A stretch of DNA of 48,468 nucleotides, taken from IMG/VR virus record IMGVR_UViG_3300048833_000087, positions 1-48,468 of that record; one strand, given 5' to 3'. Source of the DNA: a virus. Both the position numbers and the translations under genes were made by a program. Shown one piece after another: positions 4,308 to 48,468 of this stretch. The notes under the pieces are model-generated. The model ran no database searches, was not told the origin of the DNA, and saw only the letters and a program-made list of their open reading frames with translations. The stretch's first letter is position 1. Each line of letters starts with the position of its first letter.

Positions 4308-4317
4308 CTGGTCTCTC

Positions 4318-4329
4318 GCTATGCTCTAT
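4318..4329 (-). repeat. ATAGAG-N-ATAGAG leader element (copy 2, imperfect)
   Basis: Minus strand ATAGAGCATAGC, 10 bases upstream of the ATG at 4307. The second half has C instead of A at the last matched place. Confidence 0.65.
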
Positions 4330-4345
4330 GGGGTACTGCCCGGGC

Positions 4346-4611: not shown

Positions 4612-4624
4612 CTCTATCCTCTAT
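4612..4624 (-). repeat. ATAGAG-N-ATAGAG leader element (copy 3)
   Basis: Perfect copy ATAGAGGATAGAG on the minus strand, two bases before the ATG at 4609. Confidence 0.8.
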
Positions 4625-4654
4625 TGGGGCCGGGACTGCCCCGACCATGGAGCA

Positions 4655-5216: not shown

Positions 5217-5229
5217 CTCTATGCTCTAT
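5217..5229 (-). repeat. ATAGAG-N-ATAGAG leader element (copy 4)
   Basis: Perfect copy ATAGAGCATAGAG, touching the ATG at 5216. Confidence 0.8.
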
Positions 5230-5246
5230 CGGTGGACTATGGACAA

Positions 5247-6004: not shown

Positions 6005-6017
6005 CTCTATTCTCTAT
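6005..6017 (-). repeat. ATAGAG-N-ATAGAG leader element (copy 5)
   Basis: Perfect copy ATAGAGAATAGAG, three bases before the ATG at 6001. Confidence 0.8.
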
Positions 6018-6029
6018 GAAAGCCCGGGC

Positions 6030-6404: not shown

Positions 6405-6417
6405 CTCTATCCTCTAT
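6405..6417 (-). repeat. ATAGAG-N-ATAGAG leader element (copy 6)
   Basis: Perfect copy ATAGAGGATAGAG, three bases before the ATG at 6401. Confidence 0.8.
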
Positions 6418-6429
6418 CGACCACAACCT

Positions 6430-9047: not shown

Positions 9048-9304
9048 TTCCCCGGTCTCCCAAACAGGGCGAAGCATTGCCCGCGTGGACGCCCGTCCCG
9101 GTCCGTTTCCTTGGCCCACGATAACACGCGATCACGCAGCGGGTTGTTAACCCACGTCCCCACCAGCAAGACCAACGGGCGGCCATCCCGGGCCGCCGCG
9201 TCGAGGTCCGCCTCCTCCCGCAGCTCAGTGAACTGGTCGCCGAATACGAAGGCGAAGTTGGCGAACTGCTGCGGTGTGCCCGCGAGGACGAGAATCCTGC
9301 TCAT
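9044..9304 (-). CDS. Hypothetical protein in the Z operon, 86 aa
   Basis: The N-terminus MSRILVLAGTPQQFANFAF and the later strand GRPLVLLVGTW suggest a small alpha/beta (Rossmann-like) domain. No catalytic motif is identified. The start ATG overlaps the stop of the DUF1599-like gene. Its position directly after the Z-base genes makes it a candidate accessory factor, but nothing in the sequence shows this. Confidence 0.7.
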   Translation of the reverse strand: MSRILVLAGTPQQFANFAFVFGDQFTELREEADLDAAARDGRPLVLLVGTWVNNPLRDRVLSWAKETDRDGRPRGQCFALFGRPGK

Positions 9305-10053
9305 TTCGCCAGCAACTCGAAAGTCAGGCCCTGCTCCTCGCACTTGCGCTTGACCTCGCCCGCCATGGCGTCATCCGTGGCGTTGCCGTGGTGGATGAAG
9401 ATCACGTGGCCTTCCTTGCGCCCGTACAGCTGGTCTGGGTACATCAGGGCGCAAGTGCCCACCGGGAGATTACGCTCGCGGCACTCGTTGATCGCGTCGG
9501 TCCGGTTGCTCGACATGATGAGGATGGGCACGCCGATCTGGACCTCTCGCCGGGGCGTGGTCACCCCGCCCACTTCCATCGCGCGCTGGGTCTCGACCGT
9601 GTGCATGTCTTGGTAGTTGTGCACGGCCTCTACGTCGTCCGGGTCGCCGCCGTAATTCTGAACTTCCGCGAATTCCGGGACTTCGAACGTCTCGCCCGGG
9701 AACAGAGCGGCGGCCACACGGCGACCGTATGCCTCATCGTTCTCGATAGTCATGCCGCGTAGCAGAAGCAGGTACAGAATGGCATCATCGATCCGGCCGG
9801 AAATCGGCTCGGCGTACACCTTCTCCTGCCCGGCCGCCCGATCCTTCACATAGGTGACAATAGAGTCTAGATGCTTGGACAGGTAGACCATCAGGACTTG
9901 CTCGCGGGTCAGGCCCAGTGCCTGCGCCCCGCGTTCGAAGTTGGCGAACTGATTATCCTCCCGGCGTTTGTATTCCTCGCCTTTGGATGCGGTCAACGAC
10001 CGGAGGCGCTCATACAGCTCGTCAATGCTCTTGGCGAATGCTTCGGCTTTCAT
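9301..10053 (-). CDS. DUF1599/Nmad1-like nucleotide-modification-associated protein, 250 aa
   Basis: Residues 1-110 resemble DUF1599 (nucleotide modification associated domain 1), a helical domain reported with phage base-modification systems. Visible features are KGEEYKRREDNQFANFER, GLTREQVLMVYLSKHLDSI and SGRIDDAILYLLLL. A second domain (about 165-250) has a strand VGVPILIMSSNR and ends EEQGLTFELLAK; it looks alpha/beta and is not recognised. The ATG overlaps the stop of datZ. The link between DUF1599 and Z biosynthesis is inferred from context. A role in nucleotide pool control or in recognising the modified base is possible. Confidence 0.7.
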   Translation of the reverse strand: MKAEAFAKSIDELYERLRSLTASKGEEYKRREDNQFANFERGAQALGLTREQVLMVYLSKHLDSIVTYVKDRAAGQEKVYAEPISGRIDDAILYLLLLRGMTIENDEAYGRRVAAALFPGETFEVPEFAEVQNYGGDPDDVEAVHNYQDMHTVETQRAMEVGGVTTPRREVQIGVPILIMSSNRTDAINECRERNLPVGTCALMYPDQLYGRKEGHVIFIHHGNATDDAMAGEVKRKCEEQGLTFELLAK

Positions 10054-10643
10054 GGTTCCTGTCTTTCCATCAGAGAGTGGAGGAGGGAGAAGAGTGCGGA
10101 GATGCGCTCCTTACCGGTGGCGGATTCGGACAGGTTGTCCGCTTCGGCCACCGCCGCGATCTGGTCCGCTGCCTTGGCCAACAGCCCGCCCCACACTTGA
10201 CGCGCATGCGAACCGCACCCGAAGATGCCTACGTAGTTCATGGCTTCGAGCAGGTCGGCCAGCTTCACGATCCGCCCGGCCAACGGGCACTCCCCGTCCT
10301 CGGCGACGCAGGACCGCAGCTCCTCGGCTTCGGGGTCGATGTCCGCCGCCACCCGCTCGAAAACGTCTTCGCCGTAGGTAGTGGCCAGCTGGGCGCGTAT
10401 GGCTTCCTTGGTCGGGGTGGGGAGGTCACCCATCAGGTACTCGTGGCGGTCGTGGATGGCCGCCCACCGCATCACGTTGAGCGTGAGGTTATTATCCCAA
10501 CTGAAATAGCCGAGGATGCGCAGAATCTCTTCCGCGATCACGCCCACCCGGTGCATGTGTTCGGCGACCGTCTGCTCCCGGGCGACCGCGACGATGTGCC
10601 AGCGCCGGACGTGCCCGGCCCGCAGTTTTTCGAGGACGTTCAT
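10050..10643 (-). CDS. datZ: DatZ, HD-domain dATP triphosphohydrolase
   Basis: This is a YfbR-like HD phosphohydrolase. The metal-binding residues are visible: His29 (AEHMHRVG), His64-Asp65 (IHDRHEYLMGDLPTP) and Asp130 (KLADLLEA). The RWHIV motif near residue 15 has the Trp-x-Ile pair that, as I recall, limits the base pocket to adenine in the S-2L enzyme. In Z-genome phages DatZ removes triphosphate from dATP and so keeps A out of the genome. About 175-200 aa is usual; this one has 197. The ATG overlaps the stop of mazZ (TGATG). The purZ-mazZ-datZ order makes the assignment strong. Confidence 0.9.
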   Translation of the reverse strand: MNVLEKLRAGHVRRWHIVAVAREQTVAEHMHRVGVIAEEILRILGYFSWDNNLTLNVMRWAAIHDRHEYLMGDLPTPTKEAIRAQLATTYGEDVFERVAADIDPEAEELRSCVAEDGECPLAGRIVKLADLLEAMNYVGIFGCGSHARQVWGGLLAKAADQIAAVAEADNLSESATGKERISALFSLLHSLMERQEP

Positions 10644-11158
10644 CAGAATGGTACCTCCATGTCCGGGTCCCACTTGTACACGAACAAGGTCTTGCCGTCG
10701 AGCCCCCGGTCCTTGCGGGCCAGCAGGTAGGCACCCGGGCCGGTGTGTCCCGCAGGGCAGCAGGCCGAGGGCGCCTCGCCGGGCAACACGTGGCTCCCGG
10801 TCTGCGCGAGCGGGCCGCCCTCAAACACGGCGGTATAGCTGGCCTCGGGCAGCTTCTCCGCGCCCGGGATGTGCTGGAACGTGCCCGTGGCGGTACGCTG
10901 CCACACCCGGTTGCGGATCAGCTCCAGCTTATTGAGCGTGGCCGTGCCAACGTCCACCTTGTACATGGTCGCGAGGTCCAGCAGCATGATGAACACGTCG
11001 CCCCACTCGGCCGGGTCTTCGGGGTTCTTGAGGGTCTCGCCGATTTCTTCGAACAGCTTCTTCCACGCGGCGTCCTCTCGCCCCGGGCCGAAGGTCTTCT
11101 CGGCAAACTCGTGCACCTGCTTCTGCAGGTCGGCGACGGTGATGTCGAGGCGGCTCAT
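10643..11158 (-). CDS. mazZ: MazZ, MazG-like (d)GTP pyrophosphatase
   Basis: This is an all-alpha NTP pyrophosphatase. The metal-site residues are in LFEEIGE (Glu37, Glu38, Glu41) and EWGDVFIMLLDLA (Glu51, Asp54). In Z-genome phages MazZ hydrolyses dGTP to dGMP, the substrate of PurZ. Residues 1-95 form the MazG-like domain. The C-terminal 75 residues, with CC and H and a strand KTLFVYKWDPDMEVPF, are an added region not needed in simple MazG proteins. The start ATG overlaps the purZ stop (ATGA). The assignment as MazZ rather than a general MazG rests on the neighbours. Confidence 0.9.
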   Translation of the reverse strand: MSRLDITVADLQKQVHEFAEKTFGPGREDAAWKKLFEEIGETLKNPEDPAEWGDVFIMLLDLATMYKVDVGTATLNKLELIRNRVWQRTATGTFQHIPGAEKLPEASYTAVFEGGPLAQTGSHVLPGEAPSACCPAGHTGPGAYLLARKDRGLDGKTLFVYKWDPDMEVPF

Positions 11159-12237
11159 CGGGCGTCCCCGTTGCCCAGCTCGTGGACATCTTGGTCGGCC
11201 GGGCCGAATCCGAGGTACTTCACCGAACAGCCGTACGGGCGCACGGTCTCGTTGAGCCTGTCGATGAACGACTCCTGCTCGGCCTGCGGCAGGTAATTCA
11301 CGAAGTTGAGGAACAGCTCCCGCACGCCGTTCATGCGTACCGCCTCGGCCATCTGCTTGTGGGAGAAGGTGAAGATGCGACGCGGCAGCTTGGTGACCGT
11401 GGTCAGCTCGACCGGCTGGCCGATGCTCTCGAAAGTGATTTCCTGCTGGTCGTCGTAGACCGGGCCTGAATAGCCCACCTGCTTGCCTTCGGTGTCGAAG
11501 CGATTGGCCACCCGGATGGGGTAGGTCCGCGCCGTGCCCACGATGTTGAGCCAGCTGGCCATCGTCACCGGGATGCCGCAGTCGGCGAGCATCTGATGGA
11601 CCGACACGTCGCGGCTGGTGGTGAACGGGTAGAAGCCGTGGTACATCGACAGACTGTAGCCCTGCGCGCCTTCGACCTGCAACACCCGGGCCGATGCGAG
11701 CTGCGCCTGCCATTCTTCCGCGCTCACAACGCAGTGGCCGAGGCCCTGCTCCACCAGCAGCGGGTGGGGCTTACCGAGGCACCCGGCCGTGTTGAGGTCG
11801 TCAGGATCGCGGCGGATGCGCTGGATCGCAGCCGCGCCGCAGCCCTTTTTGGTCGAGCCGATCTTGGTCATCGGCCCCGCCTCCTCGTCCCGATGGCGCT
11901 GGGTGATGATCGCGGCGCTCGGGTGGATGTACAGCTCCACGCCCGACATGAGCGGGTTGGCTTCCTCGATTTCGCGCGCGAGGTTCACCGGGTCGATGAC
12001 GCTGCCCGGGCCCAGCAGCACGCGTTCCAGTCGGCGCGACACGATGCCGTTGGCCAGCATGGTGTGGACGAATTTGCGTCCGTCCCGGTCGATGTAGGTG
12101 TGCCCGGCATTCGCGGCCCACGCGGTGACGATGGTGTCGGGGGCATCGCGCTCGGCGAGGAATCCCGCAATGAGACCCTTGCCGGTCGAGCCGAACTGCA
12201 GGTCGATGATGAGGTTACCGCGCCGGAGCTTCTGCAT
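11155..12237 (-). CDS. purZ: PurZ, 2-aminodeoxyadenylosuccinate synthase
   Basis: This is an adenylosuccinate-synthetase fold protein (360 aa). The phosphate loop reads FGSTGKG (Ser17, Lys20), where bacterial PurA has GDEGKGK with the catalytic Asp. That Asp-to-Ser change is the known mark of PurZ. The catalytic His is kept (NAGHT, His46), as are GSTKKG (127-132) and EGAQG (189-193) followed by HGFYPFTTS. PurZ joins aspartate to dGMP to give N6-succino-2-amino-dAMP, which host PurB converts to dZMP. The ATG at 12237 lies within the end of the small gene upstream; its ribosome site is weak (GAGA), so coupling is likely. Confidence 0.94.
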   Translation of the reverse strand: MQKLRRGNLIIDLQFGSTGKGLIAGFLAERDAPDTIVTAWAANAGHTYIDRDGRKFVHTMLANGIVSRRLERVLLGPGSVIDPVNLAREIEEANPLMSGVELYIHPSAAIITQRHRDEEAGPMTKIGSTKKGCGAAAIQRIRRDPDDLNTAGCLGKPHPLLVEQGLGHCVVSAEEWQAQLASARVLQVEGAQGYSLSMYHGFYPFTTSRDVSVHQMLADCGIPVTMASWLNIVGTARTYPIRVANRFDTEGKQVGYSGPVYDDQQEITFESIGQPVELTTVTKLPRRIFTFSHKQMAEAVRMNGVRELFLNFVNYLPQAEQESFIDRLNETVRPYGCSVKYLGFGPADQDVHELGNGDAR

Positions 12238-12430
12238 GAGTACATTCTCTGTCGTAGGATTCGTTGAAGTCGGGCCACCCGACCGTGGGGTCCGCCCGGT
12301 GGAGCGTGACCATGTCACAATACTGGCGCAGCTCGGCCTGCGCGCCGTCCGGGTCGTCCCCCATCGCGGCCATGGCCAGCGCGAGTACGACGCCGAAAAG
12401 GAAGAATCCGAGTTTGGATCGCTTGTTCAT
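12215..12430 (-). CDS. Small membrane-anchored or exported protein, 71 aa
   Basis: The N-terminus has two positive charges and a hydrophobic stretch (KLGFFLFGVVLALAMAAMG), a signal anchor or signal peptide. It is followed by an acidic, soluble part with two cysteines. It is the first gene of the Z operon and overlaps purZ by 23 bases. The ATG follows a perfect leader element (12431-12443) after one T. Nothing suggests an enzymatic role. It may serve mainly as a coupling leader for purZ. Confidence 0.7.
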   Translation of the reverse strand: MNKRSKLGFFLFGVVLALAMAAMGDDPDGAQAELRQYCDMVTLHRADPTVGWPDFNESYDRECTHAEAPAR

Positions 12431-12443
12431 CTCTATGCTCTAT
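12431..12443 (-). repeat. ATAGAG-N-ATAGAG leader element (copy 7)
   Basis: Perfect copy ATAGAGCATAGAG, right before the ATG at 12430. This is the leader of the Z operon. Confidence 0.8.
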
Positions 12444-12460
12444 TGGTGGACCGCACGCCC

Positions 12461-12489
12461 ATCATAGCACACCGCGCGGTCACTTACTA
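12461..12489 (-). promoter_or_regulatory. Candidate promoter of the Z operon
   Basis: Minus strand -10 TATGAT, with a poor -35 (TAGTAA) at 17 bases. It overlaps the end of the polymerase gene. The weak -35 suggests a need for an activator, or read-through from upstream. Confidence 0.5.
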
Positions 12490-14324
12490 GCCTCCCACCA
12501 ATCCGGGCCAATGCCTTGGTCGGTCCGGACCGGCACCCGGAGCGTGATGCGGTCGTCGGGCCCGAACCCGGTCACCACCCGGTTGATGGCCTCCCGGATG
12601 TCGGCCCGGTCGGGCGGCACGCTGGTGTCGAATTCATCGTGGACGTTGAGCAGCAGCCGCGCGCCCGAGCCCTTGAACTCACCGTACAGCAGCTTGTCCA
12701 GCTCGATCAGCTTCACTTTCAGGCAGTCGGCCGCCGTGCCTTGGAAGATCAGGCCCCCGGCCTTGTGGACGAACATACCGCGCGGGAACCGGATGTGGCG
12801 GCCCATGATCGTCTTGACGTGCCCCCGGCTGCGGGCCACGCTCGACGCGTCCCGGAGCAGGTCGCGCACACCCGGGATGCTGGAGTGGTACTTATGGAAC
12901 ACCTCCTCGGCCTCGGGCCCCGGCTTGAGCCACGTGCCGCCCTTGCCGTTGGGCTCGATGGTGTAGGGTAGGCCCATTTCTTCCGCGAGCCGCCCCTGTC
13001 CCATCCCGAACACCAGCCCGAGGTTGATTTGCTTCGCGTTCGGGTCGCCCGCGAACCGGGGCGAGCGCGGCAGCCCGGTCATCCCAGCCGTCAGGCTGTG
13101 GAAGTCGGTGTCCGGGTCCTTGGTGTACATGCCGATGATTTCAGGGTCGTTCACGTAGTGGGCGAACACCCGGAAGTCCATCTGCGCCCAGTCGTTGCAG
13201 ACCCACTGGCCGCCCTCGTCCGGGATGAAGATGGCCCGGACTATCGCCGCGACCTCTTTATCGCGTTTTGGAATCTGCTGCAGAGCAGGAGCATTGATAG
13301 ACAGGCGGCCAGTGCCGGTGCCCACGTCGCCCTCGCTCTTGGTCTGGTTGATGTTCGCATGGATCACGCCTTCGTGGTGGTTGCCGAGAATGTGGCCCTT
13401 GAGGAAGGTGTCCCGGGCCTTGAGCAACTTGCGCAGGCTCAGGATCATCGACGCGGCCGGGTGCTTCATCCGGCGCAGTGCGTCGGCGTCCAGCGAGGGG
13501 GCACCCGCGTCGGTCGTGTTGAGGACGGTGCCATCGGCCGTCTCCCAGTGTTCCCCGCCGTCCGCGCTGGCCACCCGGCGCGGGTCGAAAAGACGCTTGA
13601 TGCTGCCGGAGGGGTTGGGGTTTACGGGAAAGCCCGCGAGCCGGTCGAGGTCACGCTGCATGGTCTTGGACTGGCGGTCGATGTTGGCCACGGCCTTCTC
13701 GGCTCGCTCCACGTCCACTCGCACCCCGCCCTGCTCCATCCGGACGATGACCGGGAGCAATTCGCGCTCCAGTTCATGTACCCGGCGCAGGTCCTGCCGC
13801 TCGATCTGCTCTTCCTGCCAGCGCCATAGGGCGAACGCGACCCGTGTATCCTGTTTCGCGTACCGGCCCGCCACTTCTGGCGGGGCGCGATGCAGGTTGC
13901 CGATCTGGGCTTGCCGGGTGGGCTTGCCGCCGAACATCTCGGCCAACTCGGCGTAGATGTCGCCGTCCTTGCGCATCTTGATGCAGTCACGGCCCAGCGA
14001 GTCGAGGTCATAGGTCAGGCGGTGTTCGTCGATGAGCGCGGCACGAATCATCGTGCAGGTGGTTCGGTCCTCGGGGAAGTGGATACCGGCCTCGCGCGAG
14101 AAATGCCAGTCGAACTTTATATGGTGGTTGGTCAGGTGCCGGACCCGAGGAATCTCCTCGCGCAGCCATTCCAGTGCTTCCGGCTGGCGACGAACGTCGA
14201 AGTACAGGTCCCGGTCCTCGACCGAGATGGCCACACCGAAGATTTTATCGGCCCACCAATTCAGGCCGGTGGTTTCGAGGTCGAGCGCGACCAGCGGGTA
14301 ATCGCGCAGGCTCGGGAACTTCAT
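12480..14324 (-). CDS. dpoZ: DpoZ, family A DNA polymerase with 3'-5' exonuclease
   Basis: This 614-aa protein is a Klenow-like enzyme without a 5' nuclease domain. Exonuclease: DLETTG (Asp15, Glu17), NHHIKFD (66-72), YAKQD (Asp159). Polymerase: TGTGRLS (336-342), motif A NDWAQMDFR (Asp378), O-helix NAKQINLGLVFG (Lys431), motif C VHDE (561-564). In the O-helix, Leu435 and Phe439 stand where E. coli Pol I has Phe762 and Tyr766, and the Arg754 place appears to be Asp427. Family A polymerases next to purZ (DpoZ) favour dZTP over dATP in known Z phages. The ATG overlaps the helicase stop (ATGA). Confidence 0.9.
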   Translation of the reverse strand: MKFPSLRDYPLVALDLETTGLNWWADKIFGVAISVEDRDLYFDVRRQPEALEWLREEIPRVRHLTNHHIKFDWHFSREAGIHFPEDRTTCTMIRAALIDEHRLTYDLDSLGRDCIKMRKDGDIYAELAEMFGGKPTRQAQIGNLHRAPPEVAGRYAKQDTRVAFALWRWQEEQIERQDLRRVHELERELLPVIVRMEQGGVRVDVERAEKAVANIDRQSKTMQRDLDRLAGFPVNPNPSGSIKRLFDPRRVASADGGEHWETADGTVLNTTDAGAPSLDADALRRMKHPAASMILSLRKLLKARDTFLKGHILGNHHEGVIHANINQTKSEGDVGTGTGRLSINAPALQQIPKRDKEVAAIVRAIFIPDEGGQWVCNDWAQMDFRVFAHYVNDPEIIGMYTKDPDTDFHSLTAGMTGLPRSPRFAGDPNAKQINLGLVFGMGQGRLAEEMGLPYTIEPNGKGGTWLKPGPEAEEVFHKYHSSIPGVRDLLRDASSVARSRGHVKTIMGRHIRFPRGMFVHKAGGLIFQGTAADCLKVKLIELDKLLYGEFKGSGARLLLNVHDEFDTSVPPDRADIREAINRVVTGFGPDDRITLRVPVRTDQGIGPDWWEASK

Positions 14325-15760
14325 TGGATCACCTCGTAATCGGTCTCATATCCACCCACCACGTCGAGCTGCTGTTTGGCACGTGTGACGCCGACGTACC
14401 ACACCCGGTGTTCTTGATCAGGATTGCGATCCATGGCGCTGTAGGTCCGGGCGGTGATGCCACAGTGTAGCACGACGCGGCGGGCCTCGCGGCCCTTGGC
14501 CGAATGGATGGTGGAGATGCGAATGGTCGGGGACTGCGACAGGTCCGCCTCACGGAAGAACTCGACGTGGTCCAGCGGGATGTTGAAAGAGCGCTCCGGG
14601 CCCCGGGCGGCGATCGCCTTGAAGTCGCGCCGGTTGAGGTCGTTCTTGGTGTCGGTGGTGCCCACCTTGGCCATCACCTCGATTTCGCTCTGGCTGATGC
14701 TCTCGCCCCGCATGAGCTTGTGCAGCGCGCGGATGGCCTCGGCCCAGTGCGAGTCGAACAGGCCCGGGCGTCCGCCCTCGTTGCGGTACGGCTTGCGGAT
14801 AGCGATGAGAGCCGCCTCCACGTCCTTTTTCGTCACGTGACTGCGGCACAGGATCAGGACATCATCACCGTGGTCGATGCTCTCCGGGATGAACCCGGTG
14901 CCGTACGTCTGGACCACGCCGTCATGCGCGGCCGGGCGATAGCGCTTCTGGACTCGTTCGCGGATGCGCACCACGACGCCACGGGCCACGTCATGCACGG
15001 CCTTGGGCACGCGGTAGGACTGGGCCAACACGTGCGTGTCGCCTTCGTATCGGGTCGCGAACGTGGCCATGCCGTGCGGGTCGGCACCCGCCCACTCGTA
15101 GATTGCCTGATCGTCGTCCCCGGCAATGGTCACCTCATCCACCTGCGGGAACTCCAACATCTTGTCGATCATCTGCCACTGCAGCGGGCTCAGGTCCTGC
15201 GCCTCGTCAATGAACAGAATCTTGGCCCCGTGATTCTTGGGGCGTTGGCAGTACAGCTCCAGCAGGTCGGTGAAGTCGAGGTACCCGAATGCGGCCTTCC
15301 AGCTGTTGTAGCTCTCGATGCAGTACGTGTACTGGGCGAAGTCGCCCGGGCGGTCGTCGGAATTGTAGTATTCCTCGTGTGGGTCGCTCATGCGCGACCG
15401 GGCGAGGTTGTAGATGGCGAGGTACTTATCGCCGTCCTCCATCTGGTCGCCGTACTCGTCATTGCTCACGCCCGCGAACGAGATGCCCGCTTTCGCGCCG
15501 AACTTACGCAGCTTGTAACCATCCACCATCGACATCGGCGTCGCGCCCACGGCGCGGAATGCCAGCGAGTGGAGGGTCGAAATCTTATCTGACCGGGTCA
15601 GGCCCAGTCGCTTGAGGGCCTCACCTGCGGCGGCCTTGGTGAAAGAGAAGAAGCCAATCTCGTTGGCCTTGTATCCACGGTCCTGCGCCTCGCCCACGAG
15701 GCGGAGCATCTCTGTGGTTTTGCCGGTGCCCGGGGGCCCGAAGATCGCGAATGCCTTCAT
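14321..15760 (-). CDS. UvrD/Rep-like superfamily 1 DNA helicase, 479 aa
   Basis: The SF1A motifs are in order: Walker A GPPGTGKTT (8-16), Ia FFSFTKAAAGEA, STLHSLAFRAV, II LFIDEAQDLSP, III IAGDDDQAIYEWAGA, V ISTIHSAKGREA, VI VWYVGVTRAKQQL. It is shorter than UvrD (about 720), with reduced 1B and 2B domains, as common in phages. It likely unwinds DNA with 3'-5' polarity during replication with DpoZ, to which it is coupled. The start ATG is seven bases after a leader element, itself just after a strong hairpin (15785-15814). Confidence 0.92.
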   Translation of the reverse strand: MKAFAIFGPPGTGKTTEMLRLVGEAQDRGYKANEIGFFSFTKAAAGEALKRLGLTRSDKISTLHSLAFRAVGATPMSMVDGYKLRKFGAKAGISFAGVSNDEYGDQMEDGDKYLAIYNLARSRMSDPHEEYYNSDDRPGDFAQYTYCIESYNSWKAAFGYLDFTDLLELYCQRPKNHGAKILFIDEAQDLSPLQWQMIDKMLEFPQVDEVTIAGDDDQAIYEWAGADPHGMATFATRYEGDTHVLAQSYRVPKAVHDVARGVVVRIRERVQKRYRPAAHDGVVQTYGTGFIPESIDHGDDVLILCRSHVTKKDVEAALIAIRKPYRNEGGRPGLFDSHWAEAIRALHKLMRGESISQSEIEVMAKVGTTDTKNDLNRRDFKAIAARGPERSFNIPLDHVEFFREADLSQSPTIRISTIHSAKGREARRVVLHCGITARTYSAMDRNPDQEHRVWYVGVTRAKQQLDVVGGYETDYEVIQ

Positions 15761-15767
15761 GCTGGTC

Positions 15768-15780
15768 CTCTATTCTCTAT
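15768..15780 (-). repeat. ATAGAG-N-ATAGAG leader element (copy 8)
   Basis: Perfect copy ATAGAGAATAGAG, seven bases before the ATG at 15760 and four bases after the hairpin at 15785-15814. Confidence 0.78.
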
Positions 15781-15784
15781 TAAA

Positions 15785-17409: not shown

Positions 17410-17422
17410 CTCTATCCTCTAT
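17410..17422 (-). repeat. ATAGAG-N-ATAGAG leader element (copy 9)
   Basis: Perfect copy ATAGAGGATAGAG, one base before the ATG at 17408. It lies in the 17-base gap after the previous gene. Confidence 0.8.
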
Positions 17423-17425
17423 TGG

Positions 17426-17782: not shown

Positions 17783-17795
17783 CTCTATGGTCTAT
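17783..17795 (-). repeat. ATAGAG-N-ATAGAG leader element (copy 10, imperfect)
   Basis: Minus strand ATAGACCATAGAG (one mismatch), six bases before the ATG at 17776. Confidence 0.65.
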
Positions 17796-17801
17796 TGTTT
17801 G

Positions 17802-17866: not shown

Positions 17867-17895
17867 AGTATACAGGGCCGGGCACCCCGAGTCAA
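17867..17895 (-). promoter_or_regulatory. Sigma-70 promoter
   Basis: Minus strand TTGACT, 17 bases, TATACT. Upstream is CGGCGGTAA, a partial match to the class A 14-base block. It drives 17776 and probably the genes after it. Confidence 0.8.
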
Positions 17896-19700
17896 TTACC
17901 GCCGAGCAGCTCCTCCACTACGGCCGCAGCGTCACGGCCGCGCGCCTCGTCGATCTTGCCCCGGATATACTCCGAGAGGTCTTTCTTCTCGTCGTTGGAA
18001 GCAATGATGGTGCCGTCGATGGTGCCCTCACAGGTGAAGTCCACGATGAGCGTATTCTTGCCCTCGGCCGTGCCGCGCTCCTCGCCCTGCTCCCGGTCCA
18101 CGAAGTTGTAAGTGTTGGAGAAGAAGAAGATGTTCTCGGCCGCGTCCATGGTCAAGCCCATGCCGCCAGTGGCGGTGTTGCCGACGATGAACCGGGCCTT
18201 CTGCTTCTGGAATATCTCGTAGACATTAACGTCCCGCTGCGCCTCATCGATGTCGCCATGCAGCTCGACTACGCAACCTGCGCCGTACTTGGCGACCAGT
18301 GCATCGCGGATGGCGTAAATCTCGTCCTTGAACGCGCACCAGATGATGGTCTGCCCCTCGTACTCGTCGCACGCTTCGAGCAAGTCGTTGAGCTTGGGGT
18401 TCGGGCCGGGGATCGGCACCCGGTAGGTCCGGGGCAGTTTCTTGGCCGGGCCCCACAGGGCGCGCATCTTGGCCAGCTCTTCTTCGGTGTGCTGGTACGA
18501 CACGAACCCGCCCGCGATTTCCTGCAGGCGCAACGACTTCTCCAGCACGTTCTGGACGACCAACTCCAGCTCGGCACCCAACAACCCGATGCGGGACTTG
18601 GATTTCAACTCCTTGTACAAGCGCTTCTGCTCGGCCGCCATCGGGACCTCGCGGATGACTCGGGTCTTGTCGTGCTGGAACACCTCGTGCTGCCGGACTT
18701 GGAAGGTGTACGGGCTCACCAGCTCGACCAGCTCGTCGAGGTTGTTATACCCGACCACCTGTCGATTCTCGTACCCGCCCATCTCGGCGTACCGCGCGCG
18801 GAAGCTGTAGAAGTCCCCGAGGCCGATGATGTCCGGGTCGAGGAACTCGTACTGCATATATAGATCGAGCGGGTTCTTGGTCAGCGGCGTGCCGGTCATT
18901 ATCATCCGGTATTCACACATCCGGGCCAGCGACACGGCCCGCTCGGAGCGCGAGGCGTTGTGGGTTTTGATCTTGGACGATTCATCGACCGCGCACAGCA
19001 CGCGGGTGGATGTCAGCGCGAAGCGCTTGCAAAACTCGATGGCCTTGCCCGCCGCCAACGACTCGACGCCGACGAGCAACCATTTGAAATCGTGCTTGGT
19101 GGTGAGCCACCGTTCGAATTCCTTCGGCTTGCTCGTGTCGAGCAGATAGGCGTCGATGGGGATGGGCGCATCCTTGGCGAACTCGCGCTTCCAATTCTTG
19201 CGCAGCGACAGCGGGCAGATGAGGATGGTCTTGTCGATCTTGCCTTCCATCCGCATCGCGCAGGCCACGTCGATGGCCACCTTGGTCTTTCCGGTGCGCA
19301 TGTCCATGAACAGCGCCGACGCATGCAGGCCGTACACCTTGTCGATGGCCTCGCGCTGCTTGGGCCGTGGTTGCCGCTTAAACCCATAGAACACCGGGAA
19401 TGCGGAGGTCTTGGCCTTGCCTTTGCGCGCGTCCATATACCCGGCGATCTTGGCCTTCGCTGCGTCGGTCACGACCGTGGTCGAGGACTCGGCGTACATC
19501 TTCTCCATGAACTCGATGTTGGACCGGATGGCGGGCGCGTGCCAGCATCCCTGTGCTTTGCTCCACCTGCGATTGGGCAGCGCCCGCACGCGCTGGTTGT
19601 CCCATATCGGGCAGCGGATCACGAACCGGCCGCGCTTCTCATCGAAATCGACGGTCGTGTGCTTAGTATTCTGGTGTGAAGTCGGCTGCATGCTGTTCAT
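17892..19700 (-). CDS. SNF2-like superfamily 2 helicase/translocase, 602 aa
   Basis: Motif I is MDMRTGKTKVA (GKT near 137-139), II AVDESSKIKT (DESS in place of DEAH), III MTGTPLTKNP, V TATGGMGLTMDAAENIFFFS, VI DREQGEERGTAEGK. The N-terminal 65 residues, with IRCPIWDNQRVRALPNRRW and GCWHAP, resemble the small domain before the helicase core in phage and SMARCAL1/HARP-like SNF2 proteins. Length is normal for phage SNF2 helicases, which are thought to help replication start or fork remodelling. It overlaps the primase gene by 38 bases. An ATG three codons in is an alternative start. Confidence 0.9.
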   Translation of the reverse strand: MNSMQPTSHQNTKHTTVDFDEKRGRFVIRCPIWDNQRVRALPNRRWSKAQGCWHAPAIRSNIEFMEKMYAESSTTVVTDAAKAKIAGYMDARKGKAKTSAFPVFYGFKRQPRPKQREAIDKVYGLHASALFMDMRTGKTKVAIDVACAMRMEGKIDKTILICPLSLRKNWKREFAKDAPIPIDAYLLDTSKPKEFERWLTTKHDFKWLLVGVESLAAGKAIEFCKRFALTSTRVLCAVDESSKIKTHNASRSERAVSLARMCEYRMIMTGTPLTKNPLDLYMQYEFLDPDIIGLGDFYSFRARYAEMGGYENRQVVGYNNLDELVELVSPYTFQVRQHEVFQHDKTRVIREVPMAAEQKRLYKELKSKSRIGLLGAELELVVQNVLEKSLRLQEIAGGFVSYQHTEEELAKMRALWGPAKKLPRTYRVPIPGPNPKLNDLLEACDEYEGQTIIWCAFKDEIYAIRDALVAKYGAGCVVELHGDIDEAQRDVNVYEIFQKQKARFIVGNTATGGMGLTMDAAENIFFFSNTYNFVDREQGEERGTAEGKNTLIVDFTCEGTIDGTIIASNDEKKDLSEYIRGKIDEARGRDAAAVVEELLGGN

Positions 19701-21276
19701 TCTCTTCGATCATCGAAACCGGGAGGTACCACACGGGAATCACGTTCTTGTTGACCCTGACGCGGGTATTGCTCACGCCCATGGCACGGTTCGCGCGGAA
19801 CCACAGGTCCTTGTTCTTGATGGCGTCGGTGCGCGTCTTGCTCAGGTAAGCCACGAAATCGACGTGCCTGAACATCACGACCTTCTCGTCGTTGTAGAGC
19901 TGCACGACCGGCACGCCTCGCACCAACGCCTCGCGGTCCTTGGCATTGTCGCCCTCGCTCTTGAGGTCCGCCTTGCGCAGGAACTCGAACAGCCGGATGC
20001 GGACCATGCCTTCCGGCGTGCTGTCCTCGGGCACGTCCTCGATGGTGACGTTGTCGAACAGGTCGCGGAGAATCTTATCCCATTCATCCGCCTTGAGCCG
20101 GGGCAGTACGATATGGGTCTTGGCCATGACCGCCTTGCGCAGCTCCGGGAAGCTTACCAGCTCGTCAATAGTCAGGCCCTCGATCTTGCGGGCGTTCTCC
20201 TCGTCTCCGACGCTCAGGTCGAATCGCATCGGCTCGGCGTTGCGGTACTTGATGAGTGAATGGAACGTGGGCATCGTGGCCCGGGCGGACATCGCCTCGT
20301 ACTCGCCCTCGGAGATTCCGTATTTCAGCTTGCGGCACGCCTCGCGGTCGCAGACATCCGTGAAGTTCTGGCATTTGTAATTGTTGCTGCGGCTGCCGAT
20401 GGCCGAGCGAATGGTCTTGTCCCGCTCCTTGAACGACAGCGGATGCTCGGGCATGAGCCGGATGGCGAGGTCATGCGCGGCATCGCGTGCCGACTCGGGG
20501 TCCCGCTTGCGGCAGAACACCGCCACTTGATAGGTGCCCTCGTTGCGCTCTCCCCCGGCGAATCCGCCCGACTGGAGGCGGGCCTTGAGACACGGCGGCA
20601 GTTCAGACAGGTCATCGGAGAAGAACTTTTGCAGCGACACCCCGTCCACGGCGTTCGATTCGGCGTGCAGCAGGAACGCTTCGAGGGTCAGCTTCTTGCC
20701 GTTCGACACGGCGAACCGCTTACCCGCGCCGTCGCCATCGGTCGAGCCGTAGTATGGCAGGTTGATCCAGTTACCCAGCGCCTGCACGCCGTCCGAGTTG
20801 ATCTGCAGTCGGCCCTGTTTGGGGTAGATGCAGTCAACGCCGTCCACTTCCAGCTCGGCGGCCCAGCGCGTGAGGACCGCCTTCACCATGTCGGCGCGCA
20901 CCGGCTCGGCGAAGAAGATGTAGAGATGGACGCCCCCGGACTTGCTGCGGCACGGGATCAGGGGCAGGCCCTTGGCCGCCACCTTCTTCTCCACCGCCCG
21001 GATGTCCATGTCCTTGTCGGAGCCATGGTTATCGAGGTCGATGGCCCCCCACAGTGTGGTGCCATCATCCCGTACCGGGACTATGCCGACGCCAACCCCG
21101 CCATCGAGATGCGCCGCGAACGCCTTTTCGAATACTTCGGGCTTGAACCCGTCGTGATCTTTCTCTGTGATTGACTGCTTGTCCTTGGGCTTGTTCGGGT
21201 CCCACCGGCCGTATGACCGCAGGTTGCCTCGGAACAGCCGCAGGAACCGGTGCAGATTCAGTTGGTCTGCCATCAT
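19663..21276 (-). CDS. AEP-type primase (TOTE/PrimPol-like), 537 aa
   Basis: The catalytic features of an archaeo-eukaryotic primase are visible: WGAIDLDNH with Asp80 and Asp82, and CRSKSGGVHLYIFF with the S-x-x-x-H motif (Ser113-His117). They are followed by TRWAAELEVDGVDCIYPKQ, as in the primase domain of TOTE-type systems. Residues 170-320 contain a helical PriCT-like region and a Cys cluster (CQNFTDVCDREAC). The C-terminal 200 residues are not recognised. It should make primers, and possibly DNA, for the Z genome; cyanophage S-2L also uses an AEP PrimPol. Start: the first of two ATGs, after GAGGGG. Confidence 0.85.
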   Translation of the reverse strand: MMADQLNLHRFLRLFRGNLRSYGRWDPNKPKDKQSITEKDHDGFKPEVFEKAFAAHLDGGVGVGIVPVRDDGTTLWGAIDLDNHGSDKDMDIRAVEKKVAAKGLPLIPCRSKSGGVHLYIFFAEPVRADMVKAVLTRWAAELEVDGVDCIYPKQGRLQINSDGVQALGNWINLPYYGSTDGDGAGKRFAVSNGKKLTLEAFLLHAESNAVDGVSLQKFFSDDLSELPPCLKARLQSGGFAGGERNEGTYQVAVFCRKRDPESARDAAHDLAIRLMPEHPLSFKERDKTIRSAIGSRSNNYKCQNFTDVCDREACRKLKYGISEGEYEAMSARATMPTFHSLIKYRNAEPMRFDLSVGDEENARKIEGLTIDELVSFPELRKAVMAKTHIVLPRLKADEWDKILRDLFDNVTIEDVPEDSTPEGMVRIRLFEFLRKADLKSEGDNAKDREALVRGVPVVQLYNDEKVVMFRHVDFVAYLSKTRTDAIKNKDLWFRANRAMGVSNTRVRVNKNVIPVWYLPVSMIEENEQHAADFTPEY

Positions 21277-21291
21277 CCCCTCGGGTTGTTC

Positions 21292-21303
21292 GCTATGCTC
21301 TAT
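21292..21303 (-). repeat. ATAGAG-N-ATAGAG leader element (copy 11, imperfect)
   Basis: Minus strand ATAGAGCATAGC, 15 bases before the primase ATG. Here a normal ribosome site (GAGGGG) lies between it and the start. Confidence 0.65.
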
Positions 21304-21310
21304 TGACACT

Positions 21311-21339
21311 ATCGTACCACGACGGCACCGGGGCGACAA
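21311..21339 (-). promoter_or_regulatory. Primase promoter
   Basis: Minus strand TTGTCG, 17 bases, TACGAT. It lies between the iteron module (21414-21619) and the primase gene, so the module is upstream of this promoter in the direction of transcription. Confidence 0.72.
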
Positions 21340-21413
21340 TCCCAGCCACTTCCGCACTCATATGGGAGGCACCCGGAACCCCGGGGCGGCCGAGGGGGTG
21401 CCCTGCCCCGTTT

Positions 21414-22246: not shown

Positions 22247-22259
22247 CTCTATGCTCTAT
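22247..22259 (-). repeat. ATAGAG-N-ATAGAG leader element (copy 12)
   Basis: Perfect copy ATAGAGCATAGAG, 10 bases before the ATG at 22236, right after the hairpin at 22264-22291. Confidence 0.78.
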
Positions 22260-22263
22260 TAGG

Positions 22264-39884: not shown

Positions 39885-40904
39885 TCAGCCGTTGGAGACG
39901 AGGAACGCCATCGGGACGTGCTTGCGGGTCAGCACGCGCTCCCAGTTGGTGTCCAGCGCGAGGTCCGCCCACGTCGGCGACAGGCCCGGTCCGGTGATGG
40001 TCGTGGACAGGAACTTGTAGCCGAACGGGTGGATCAGCCACTTGCGACGGCTCCACAGGGTATCGACACCCTGACCGTTGCCGCGCGCGGGCTCGCGGTC
40101 CACCTCGCCATCGGCGAAGGCGACCTCGTCCTGACCGAACGCGATGGCACCATTGCCCCACAGGATGGACAGGTACTTGCGGTCGATACCGGTGCCGAAG
40201 GTCGGCAGGCCGTCATCGATCACGACCACCTTGCCCTTGTACGCCTGCATGAGCAGGTTGCCCTCGGAATCGCGGACCTCCTCGATTTCGTTGTTCTTCA
40301 CCATGCGGCGGGCCACCATCGAGTGCACCGCGATGGCCGCGAGGTTCTCGTAATGGTCGCCGAGGGTGAAGGCCGTGTCGACGAACGCATCGACGTTGAA
40401 GCGGTTGTCGTCGGTGACGGTGCCCAGGGTCTGCGACGAGATGTCGATGACCATGTCACCGCCGCCCGAGGTCACGTTGTCGTTGTACACGCCCAGCGAG
40501 ACCGCGACCGCGCGCCGCTGGAGCTGCTTGTCCCAGTAGCTGTTGATGCGGTTGGCGATGTGCTGCATCGGGTCCTGCTTGAGCAGTTCCTTGACGAAGC
40601 GCATGGCCGCCCAGCCCTCGTTCAGCAGGGCGATACGGGCGACCTGCTCGCCGGTATTCACGTCCTGCGGCTCGGCGATGTCGGTGTACACGTCGTTGCC
40701 GTAGTTCGGCTCGACGGAAGCGTCGAGGTCGTTCCAGAACGGCATGGTGGTGGTGAAGCCCGGGGTGGCCGCATACGCGTCCCACGCTCCGCCCGCCGAC
40801 AGCACGCCGGACTGACCGAAGGCGGTCAGCTCGGGCGAATTGACGGTGATGTACGAGGCGAAGACGTCCGGGATGATGACGTCAGAAAGGGTGACCTGTG
40901 CCAT
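39885..40904 (-). CDS. Major capsid protein, 339 aa
   Basis: Size, place after the scaffold gene, and the sequence support a HK97-fold coat protein. FTTTMPFWNDLDASVEPNYG followed by LLNEGWAAMRFVKELLKQD, and the C-terminal LWSRRKWLIHPFGYKFLS, match a coat protein group of siphophages with a separate scaffold. There is no N-terminal delta domain or protease gene nearby; the separate 246-aa scaffold takes that role. A good ribosome site (GAGGAAA) precedes the ATG. Confidence 0.9.
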   Translation of the reverse strand: MAQVTLSDVIIPDVFASYITVNSPELTAFGQSGVLSAGGAWDAYAATPGFTTTMPFWNDLDASVEPNYGNDVYTDIAEPQDVNTGEQVARIALLNEGWAAMRFVKELLKQDPMQHIANRINSYWDKQLQRRAVAVSLGVYNDNVTSGGGDMVIDISSQTLGTVTDDNRFNVDAFVDTAFTLGDHYENLAAIAVHSMVARRMVKNNEIEEVRDSEGNLLMQAYKGKVVVIDDGLPTFGTGIDRKYLSILWGNGAIAFGQDEVAFADGEVDREPARGNGQGVDTLWSRRKWLIHPFGYKFLSTTITGPGLSPTWADLALDTNWERVLTRKHVPMAFLVSNG

Positions 40905-48211: not shown

Positions 48212-48445
48212 TCAGACCTCCATCCAACCCAGCGCGCGGGCCTGCGCCGGGTCCAAGTCCACGAGGTAGTACACCGGGTCGCCCGGGGCCTGCAGTACGG
48301 CTTGGGTGGCGGTCACGTGCGTCAGGCCGTTGACTGCCGGGTTGATCGTGCGACCGGCCGCGATCACGTCGCGCAGGAGCTGGCGATCCCGGGGGAACGC
48401 GCCGATCATCTTGCGGGGCTTCTTGGTGGCGGTGTAGGCGTTCAT
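48212..48445 (-). CDS. Hypothetical early protein, 77 aa
   Basis: The N-terminus is basic (TKKPRKMIGAFPRDRQLL) and the C-terminal half is beta-like, with PVYYLVDLDPAQARALGWM. The gene is complete here and its first 34 codons are repeated at 1-104. The ATG overlaps the stop of the 51-aa gene (TAATG), so both are in one operon driven by the promoter at 302-330. No family is recognised. Confidence 0.75.
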   Translation of the reverse strand: MNAYTATKKPRKMIGAFPRDRQLLRDVIAAGRTINPAVNGLTHVTATQAVLQAPGDPVYYLVDLDPAQARALGWMEV

Positions 48446-48468
48446 TAGCGGGCGGCCTCCAGCACGTC
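48342..48468. repeat. Terminal direct repeat, right copy
   Basis: Identical to 1-127. See the left copy. Confidence 0.95.
48445..48468 (-). CDS. 3' end of the 51-aa gene (duplicate)
   Basis: The last seven codons and stop of the gene that is complete at 104-259. It appears here only because of the terminal overlap. Confidence 0.8.
   Translation of the reverse strand, partial: DVLEAAR

Follow-up and report, generated by a model that had tools for sequence, protein, structure and literature searches.

The window, as we call the whole 48,468-base virus record analysed here, very probably (probability about 0.9) represents a tailed phage that encodes a complete 2,6-diaminopurine (Z) cluster and a Z-selective polymerase, organised as in SH-Ab 15497 and PMBT28, and whose genome carries Z in place of A. 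A purZ, a mazZ, a datZ and a DpoZ-type polymerase gene, which the sequence-only reading had placed together at this position, were all found there on the minus strand with strong family matches (Table 1). These four genes are the known set that allows some phages to swap adenine for 2,6-diaminopurine, a well-described system whose biochemistry has already been established (PMC8342488, PMC8065100, PMC8599892, PMC12884076). The interpretation of the locus as a complete Z-genome pathway, also proposed in that reading, is supported by family, residue, phylogeny and synteny tests.

Table 1. Features of the window discussed in the text (positions in bases of the window).
Feature	Position	Strand	Context or basis
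Archaeo-eukaryotic (AEP) primase	19663-21357	minus	replication module
SNF2-type superfamily II helicase	17892-19700	minus	replication module
UvrD/PcrA-like helicase	14321-15760	minus	directly upstream of DpoZ
DpoZ, phiVC8-like family A DNA polymerase with 3'-5' exonuclease	12480-14324	minus	NF038380, PDB 7pbk, residues, clade
71-aa ORF between DpoZ and PurZ	12215-12430	minus	PHROG 6168
PurZ, predicted succino-aminodeoxyadenylate synthetase (dGMP + Asp)	11155-12237	minus	NF038379, PDB 7odx, residues, tree
MazZ-1, predicted (d)GTP pyrophosphohydrolase (DUF550), stand-alone	10643-11158	minus	PF04447, PDB 7ody, metal residues
DatZ, predicted dATP triphosphohydrolase (HD domain)	10050-10643	minus	PHROG 7076, PDB 6zpa, residues
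Conserved protein downstream of DatZ	9301-10053	minus	PHROG 6802
Capsid protein	39885-40904		structural module
Candidate leader motif sites	263-276, 4317-4330, 4612-4625, 5217-5230, 6005-6018, 6405-6418	minus	
Candidate leader motif sites	12431-12444, 15768-15781, 17410-17423, 17783-17796, 21291-21304, 22247-22260	minus	

The genome is probably complete because its first 127 bases recur exactly at its end (1-127 = 48342-48468) as a terminal direct repeat. It encodes a siphovirus-like structural module with terminase, portal, scaffold, capsid and tape measure proteins, and a replication module in which all genes, from the AEP primase to the conserved protein after DatZ, lie on the minus strand. 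No close DNA match to the first 25 kb was found in the phage collection searched. The genes of the cluster had been described as all coupled by 4-base overlaps, which holds for PurZ and MazZ, whereas MazZ and DatZ overlap by a single base. Overlaps of 4 bases also join DatZ to the gene downstream of it and DpoZ to the UvrD-like helicase upstream. DpoZ and PurZ lack direct coupling; the 71-aa ORF separates them and occupies the position of a named DNA-binding protein in the SH-Ab 15497 and PMBT28 records.

The PurZ of the window matched PHROG 1211 (2-aminooxy adenylosuccinate synthetase; E = 2.5e-82), had S-2L PurZ as its nearest solved structure (PDB 7odx, E = 1.1e-86) and scored 358 bits against NCBIfam NF038379, above the curated cut-off of 300; for its start, the ATG at 12237 is more likely than the GTG at 12318. 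For residue comparisons, positions were taken from structure papers, and the window proteins were aligned with members from S-2L, phiVC8 and SH-Ab and with E. coli PurA, YfbR and PolA. Ser occupies the position of PurA Asp13 in the window PurZ, as in all PurZ rows aligned (82/82); Thr is found at S-2L T273, and Asn at Q308, as in most of the aligned PurZ sequences. In a tree of 83 rows, the window paired with IMG/VR contig L002 (73% identity) inside a group containing S-2L and SH-Ab, far from the PurZ0 group (Wayne, Archimedes) and equally far removed from PurA, which E. coli alone represents in the tree as its single cellular sequence. The phylogenetic check of PurZ against PurA suggested by the sequence-only reading thus places the protein in the phage PurZ clade rather than with cellular PurA as represented by E. 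coli. Both this tree and the polymerase tree described below are products of quick searches with some long branches, in which the fine order within clades is unreliable. By analogy with characterised homologues, we infer that this PurZ is a succino-aminodeoxyadenylate synthetase using dGMP and aspartate. A PurZ0 or Wayne-type pathway was rejected, since the protein has no GSEAKG motif and Wayne and Archimedes stand apart in both trees. No dut-like gene was found in the subset of the window's ORFs that was scanned.

MazZ matched the Pfam family dATP-dGTP_PPHyd (PF04447, DUF550) at 3.3e-6, and S-2L MazZ (PDB 7ody, E = 8.4e-14) was its sole convincing match in the PDB. Residues E34, E35, E38, E50, D53, I56, D60, K76, R83, W85 and H95 are retained, including the metal residues (the first five) and D60, the reader of the 2-amino group, and the position of S-2L Asn80 in the ligand pocket is occupied by Ile, a departure that counts against the Z reading. 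The protein is stand-alone and ends in a C-terminal tail of about 70 residues, which among aligned relatives is closely matched only by that of L002. From its homologues, MazZ is predicted to be (d)GTP-specific. DatZ matched PHROG 7076 (dATP triphosphohydrolase; E = 7.9e-27), with S-2L DatZ as the nearest solved structure (PDB 6zpa, E = 1.6e-11). It retains all thirteen positions named for S-2L and has R19, W20, I22, H34, H66, D67, P79, K81, K116 and D119, the HD metal residues among them, with W20, I22 and P79 as base-reading residues. E. coli YfbR departs from the thirteen at I22 (Leu), Q29 and A32. I22 is not proof by itself: certain Z phages carry Leu or Met there.

The polymerase matched phiVC8 DpoZ (PDB 7pbk) with E = 2.6e-132 and 446 bits, whereas the second-best family A polymerase reached 147, and scored 831 bits against NCBIfam NF038380 (curated cut-off 500). 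It carries F459, L455, G548 and R161 (helix E2), with Ile at the position of M165, and its insertion 3 resembles that of the phiVC8 group; the 117-127 insertion is absent, as it is from the polymerases of SH-Ab, PMBT28, Kokobel2 and Bm1. Position 459 is Tyr in the non-Z sequences aligned, namely three phage polymerases and E. coli PolA. F459 alone is not proof of a DpoZ, and no single residue accounts for the specificity of these enzymes (PMC8599892). In a tree of 75 rows, in which the window paired with L002 at 85% identity, one group (support 99) of 68 rows contained the window and the phiVC8-like polymerases of Z phages but no non-Z control. Outside this group lay JEP7, Chuck, Kimi and E. 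coli PolA, together with Wayne, Archimedes and contig L063. A DpoZ-like polymerase in a phage without Z genes has been published for phiJL001. L063 itself is a divergent contig with purZ; in its polymerase, which lies outside the DpoZ clade, position 459 is Tyr rather than Phe, yet MazZ-2 and DatZ matches are present on it.

Searches with PurZ recovered 206 phage records, which include the distant PurZ0 group and perhaps some PurA-like proteins, and 71 IMG/VR contigs; the best phage records, those of Kokobel2, Acinetobacter phages and PMBT28, matched PurZ at 47-51%. The order DpoZ-PurZ-MazZ-DatZ was constant in the compared loci holding at least two of the four genes. Acinetobacter phage SH-Ab 15497, Salmonella phage PMBT28 and Providencia phage Kokobel2 share with the window the arrangement UvrD-DpoZ-small gene-PurZ-MazZ-DatZ, with PurZ about 49-52% and DpoZ 48-52% identical, but their MazZ bears an N-terminal DUF5664 domain that the window MazZ lacks. 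Cyanophage S-2L had been named among the phages that hold these genes, which is correct for purZ, mazZ and datZ, present in the same order and with a stand-alone MazZ as in the window; different from the window, however, S-2L has no DpoZ and uses a PrimPol that does not choose between Z and A (PMC8065100). PurZ, DatZ and a DpoZ from this clade also occur in Vibrio phage phiVC8 and Alteromonas phage ZP6, although these use MazZ-2 and have the 117-127 insertion in their DpoZ, whereas the window has MazZ-1 and lacks the insertion. The closest relative found was L002 (IMGVR_UViG_3300003972_000015, uncultivated), which has the window's gene order, down to the gene that follows DatZ, as well as its ATAGAG leader repeats.

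These proteins suggest a pathway in which, as in the characterised systems, MazZ would convert dGTP to dGMP, PurZ would join dGMP and aspartate into the succino-amino intermediate, and host PurB and nucleotide kinases would carry this product through dZMP to dZTP. DatZ would degrade dATP to dA and lower the dATP pool, and DpoZ, with proofreading biased to Z:T over A:T, would copy the genome using Z instead of A, which may render the DNA resistant to many adenine-reading host nucleases. On the strength of the homologues, we strongly infer that Z is present in the DNA of this virus.

An active cassette with partial replacement, leaving A and Z mixed through incomplete dATP removal or polymerase selection, is unlikely but is the better surviving of the alternatives. 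When the three S-2L genes were transferred into E. coli, replacement was only partial (PMC8342488), the window MazZ is without the DUF5664 domain of SH-Ab and PMBT28, and A-containing palindromes are still depleted in the window. On the other hand, a polymerase of the Z-selective type and DatZ are both encoded with their key residues kept, and PMC12884076 describes Z phages with complete substitution. The depletion itself comes from an exploratory test of palindrome avoidance, which is not an established criterion and gives values that vary widely among phages: the observed/expected ratio of six-base palindromes with A or T was 0.65 in the window, a stronger depletion than in the other purZ-bearing sequences measured (0.70-0.97), while purZ-less controls spanned 0.27-0.93, and those of the window were not spared relative to GC-only palindromes. 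Several six-base palindromes are absent from the window (CCGCGG, 0 of 38 expected; CTCGAG, 0/22; GAGCTC, 0/18; AGGCCT, 0/14), and these may perhaps trace host restriction, A-containing sites included.

Far less probable is that the PurA-like gene encodes a conventional adenylosuccinate synthetase raising dATP supply beside an unrelated MazG and HD hydrolase: the superfamilies of all four proteins do have common cellular members, but we rejected an ordinary PurA on the replacement of catalytic Asp13 by Ser, the tree placement apart from E. coli PurA and the score above the PurZ-specific cut-off, and DatZ, MazZ and DpoZ are constant companions of the gene. Equally improbable is a cassette in decay, or one that is expressed yet unused, given four full-length open frames with intact catalytic residues and the retention of the same genes in L002 at 73% (PurZ) and 85% (DpoZ) identity. 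The preferred reading, replacement of A by Z through the complete cluster, leaves what is known of Z-DNA synthesis unchanged; it adds further PurZ, DatZ and DpoZ enzymes that could serve in Z-DNA production, encoded with all four key Z genes in a high-GC, probably complete genome from a lineage with no close match in the phage collection searched.

The genome is a mosaic in which the Z replication genes and the structural genes have different associations. Capsid relatives in IMG/VR were mostly 43-55% identical, and purZ was not detected in 16 checked contigs with such relatives (within L102-L122, several of them fragments), whereas only L002 among 18 purZ contigs tested has the capsid type of the window, the others of these purZ relatives mostly having other capsids. 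No relatives of the portal protein were found in IMG/VR. The mosaic pattern is in line with the several distinct groups that Z phages comprise (PMC12884076), and the window offers a further data point for tracing the movement of the pathway between phages.

Homologues of the conserved protein encoded after DatZ are also located downstream of DatZ in six contigs (L002, L003, L004, L008, L014 and L073), and its relatives in named phages are chiefly from Gordonia and Rhodococcus phages. Residues E27, D33, N38, K60, H61, R87 and D90 are conserved, and no match was found in Pfam or NCBIfam. The AlphaFold model, built from 7 sequences, was poor (mean pLDDT 63), with an all-helical N-terminal part of low confidence, and this low-confidence model had no PDB fold match at an E of 0.001 or better. 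The protein is possibly a further nucleotide enzyme. It is rather doubtful, though conceivable, that there is a Z-phage lineage, comprising the window and its closest relatives, in which this protein is a separate nucleotide hydrolase replacing the role of the fused DUF5664 in SH-Ab-type MazZ; if so, it would be another independent way to drain competing nucleotides.

A tandem leader motif, AATAGAG-N-ATAGAG, was matched 13 times in the window with at most 2 mismatches (0.22 expected), 12 of the matches being on the minus strand. Each of the nine sites inspected is followed within a few bases by an ATG, in one case the start of the 71-aa ORF preceding purZ, and some have a TATAAT-like box upstream. 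The motif resembles a common 5' leader or ribosome-binding element, and nine exact copies are present in L002.
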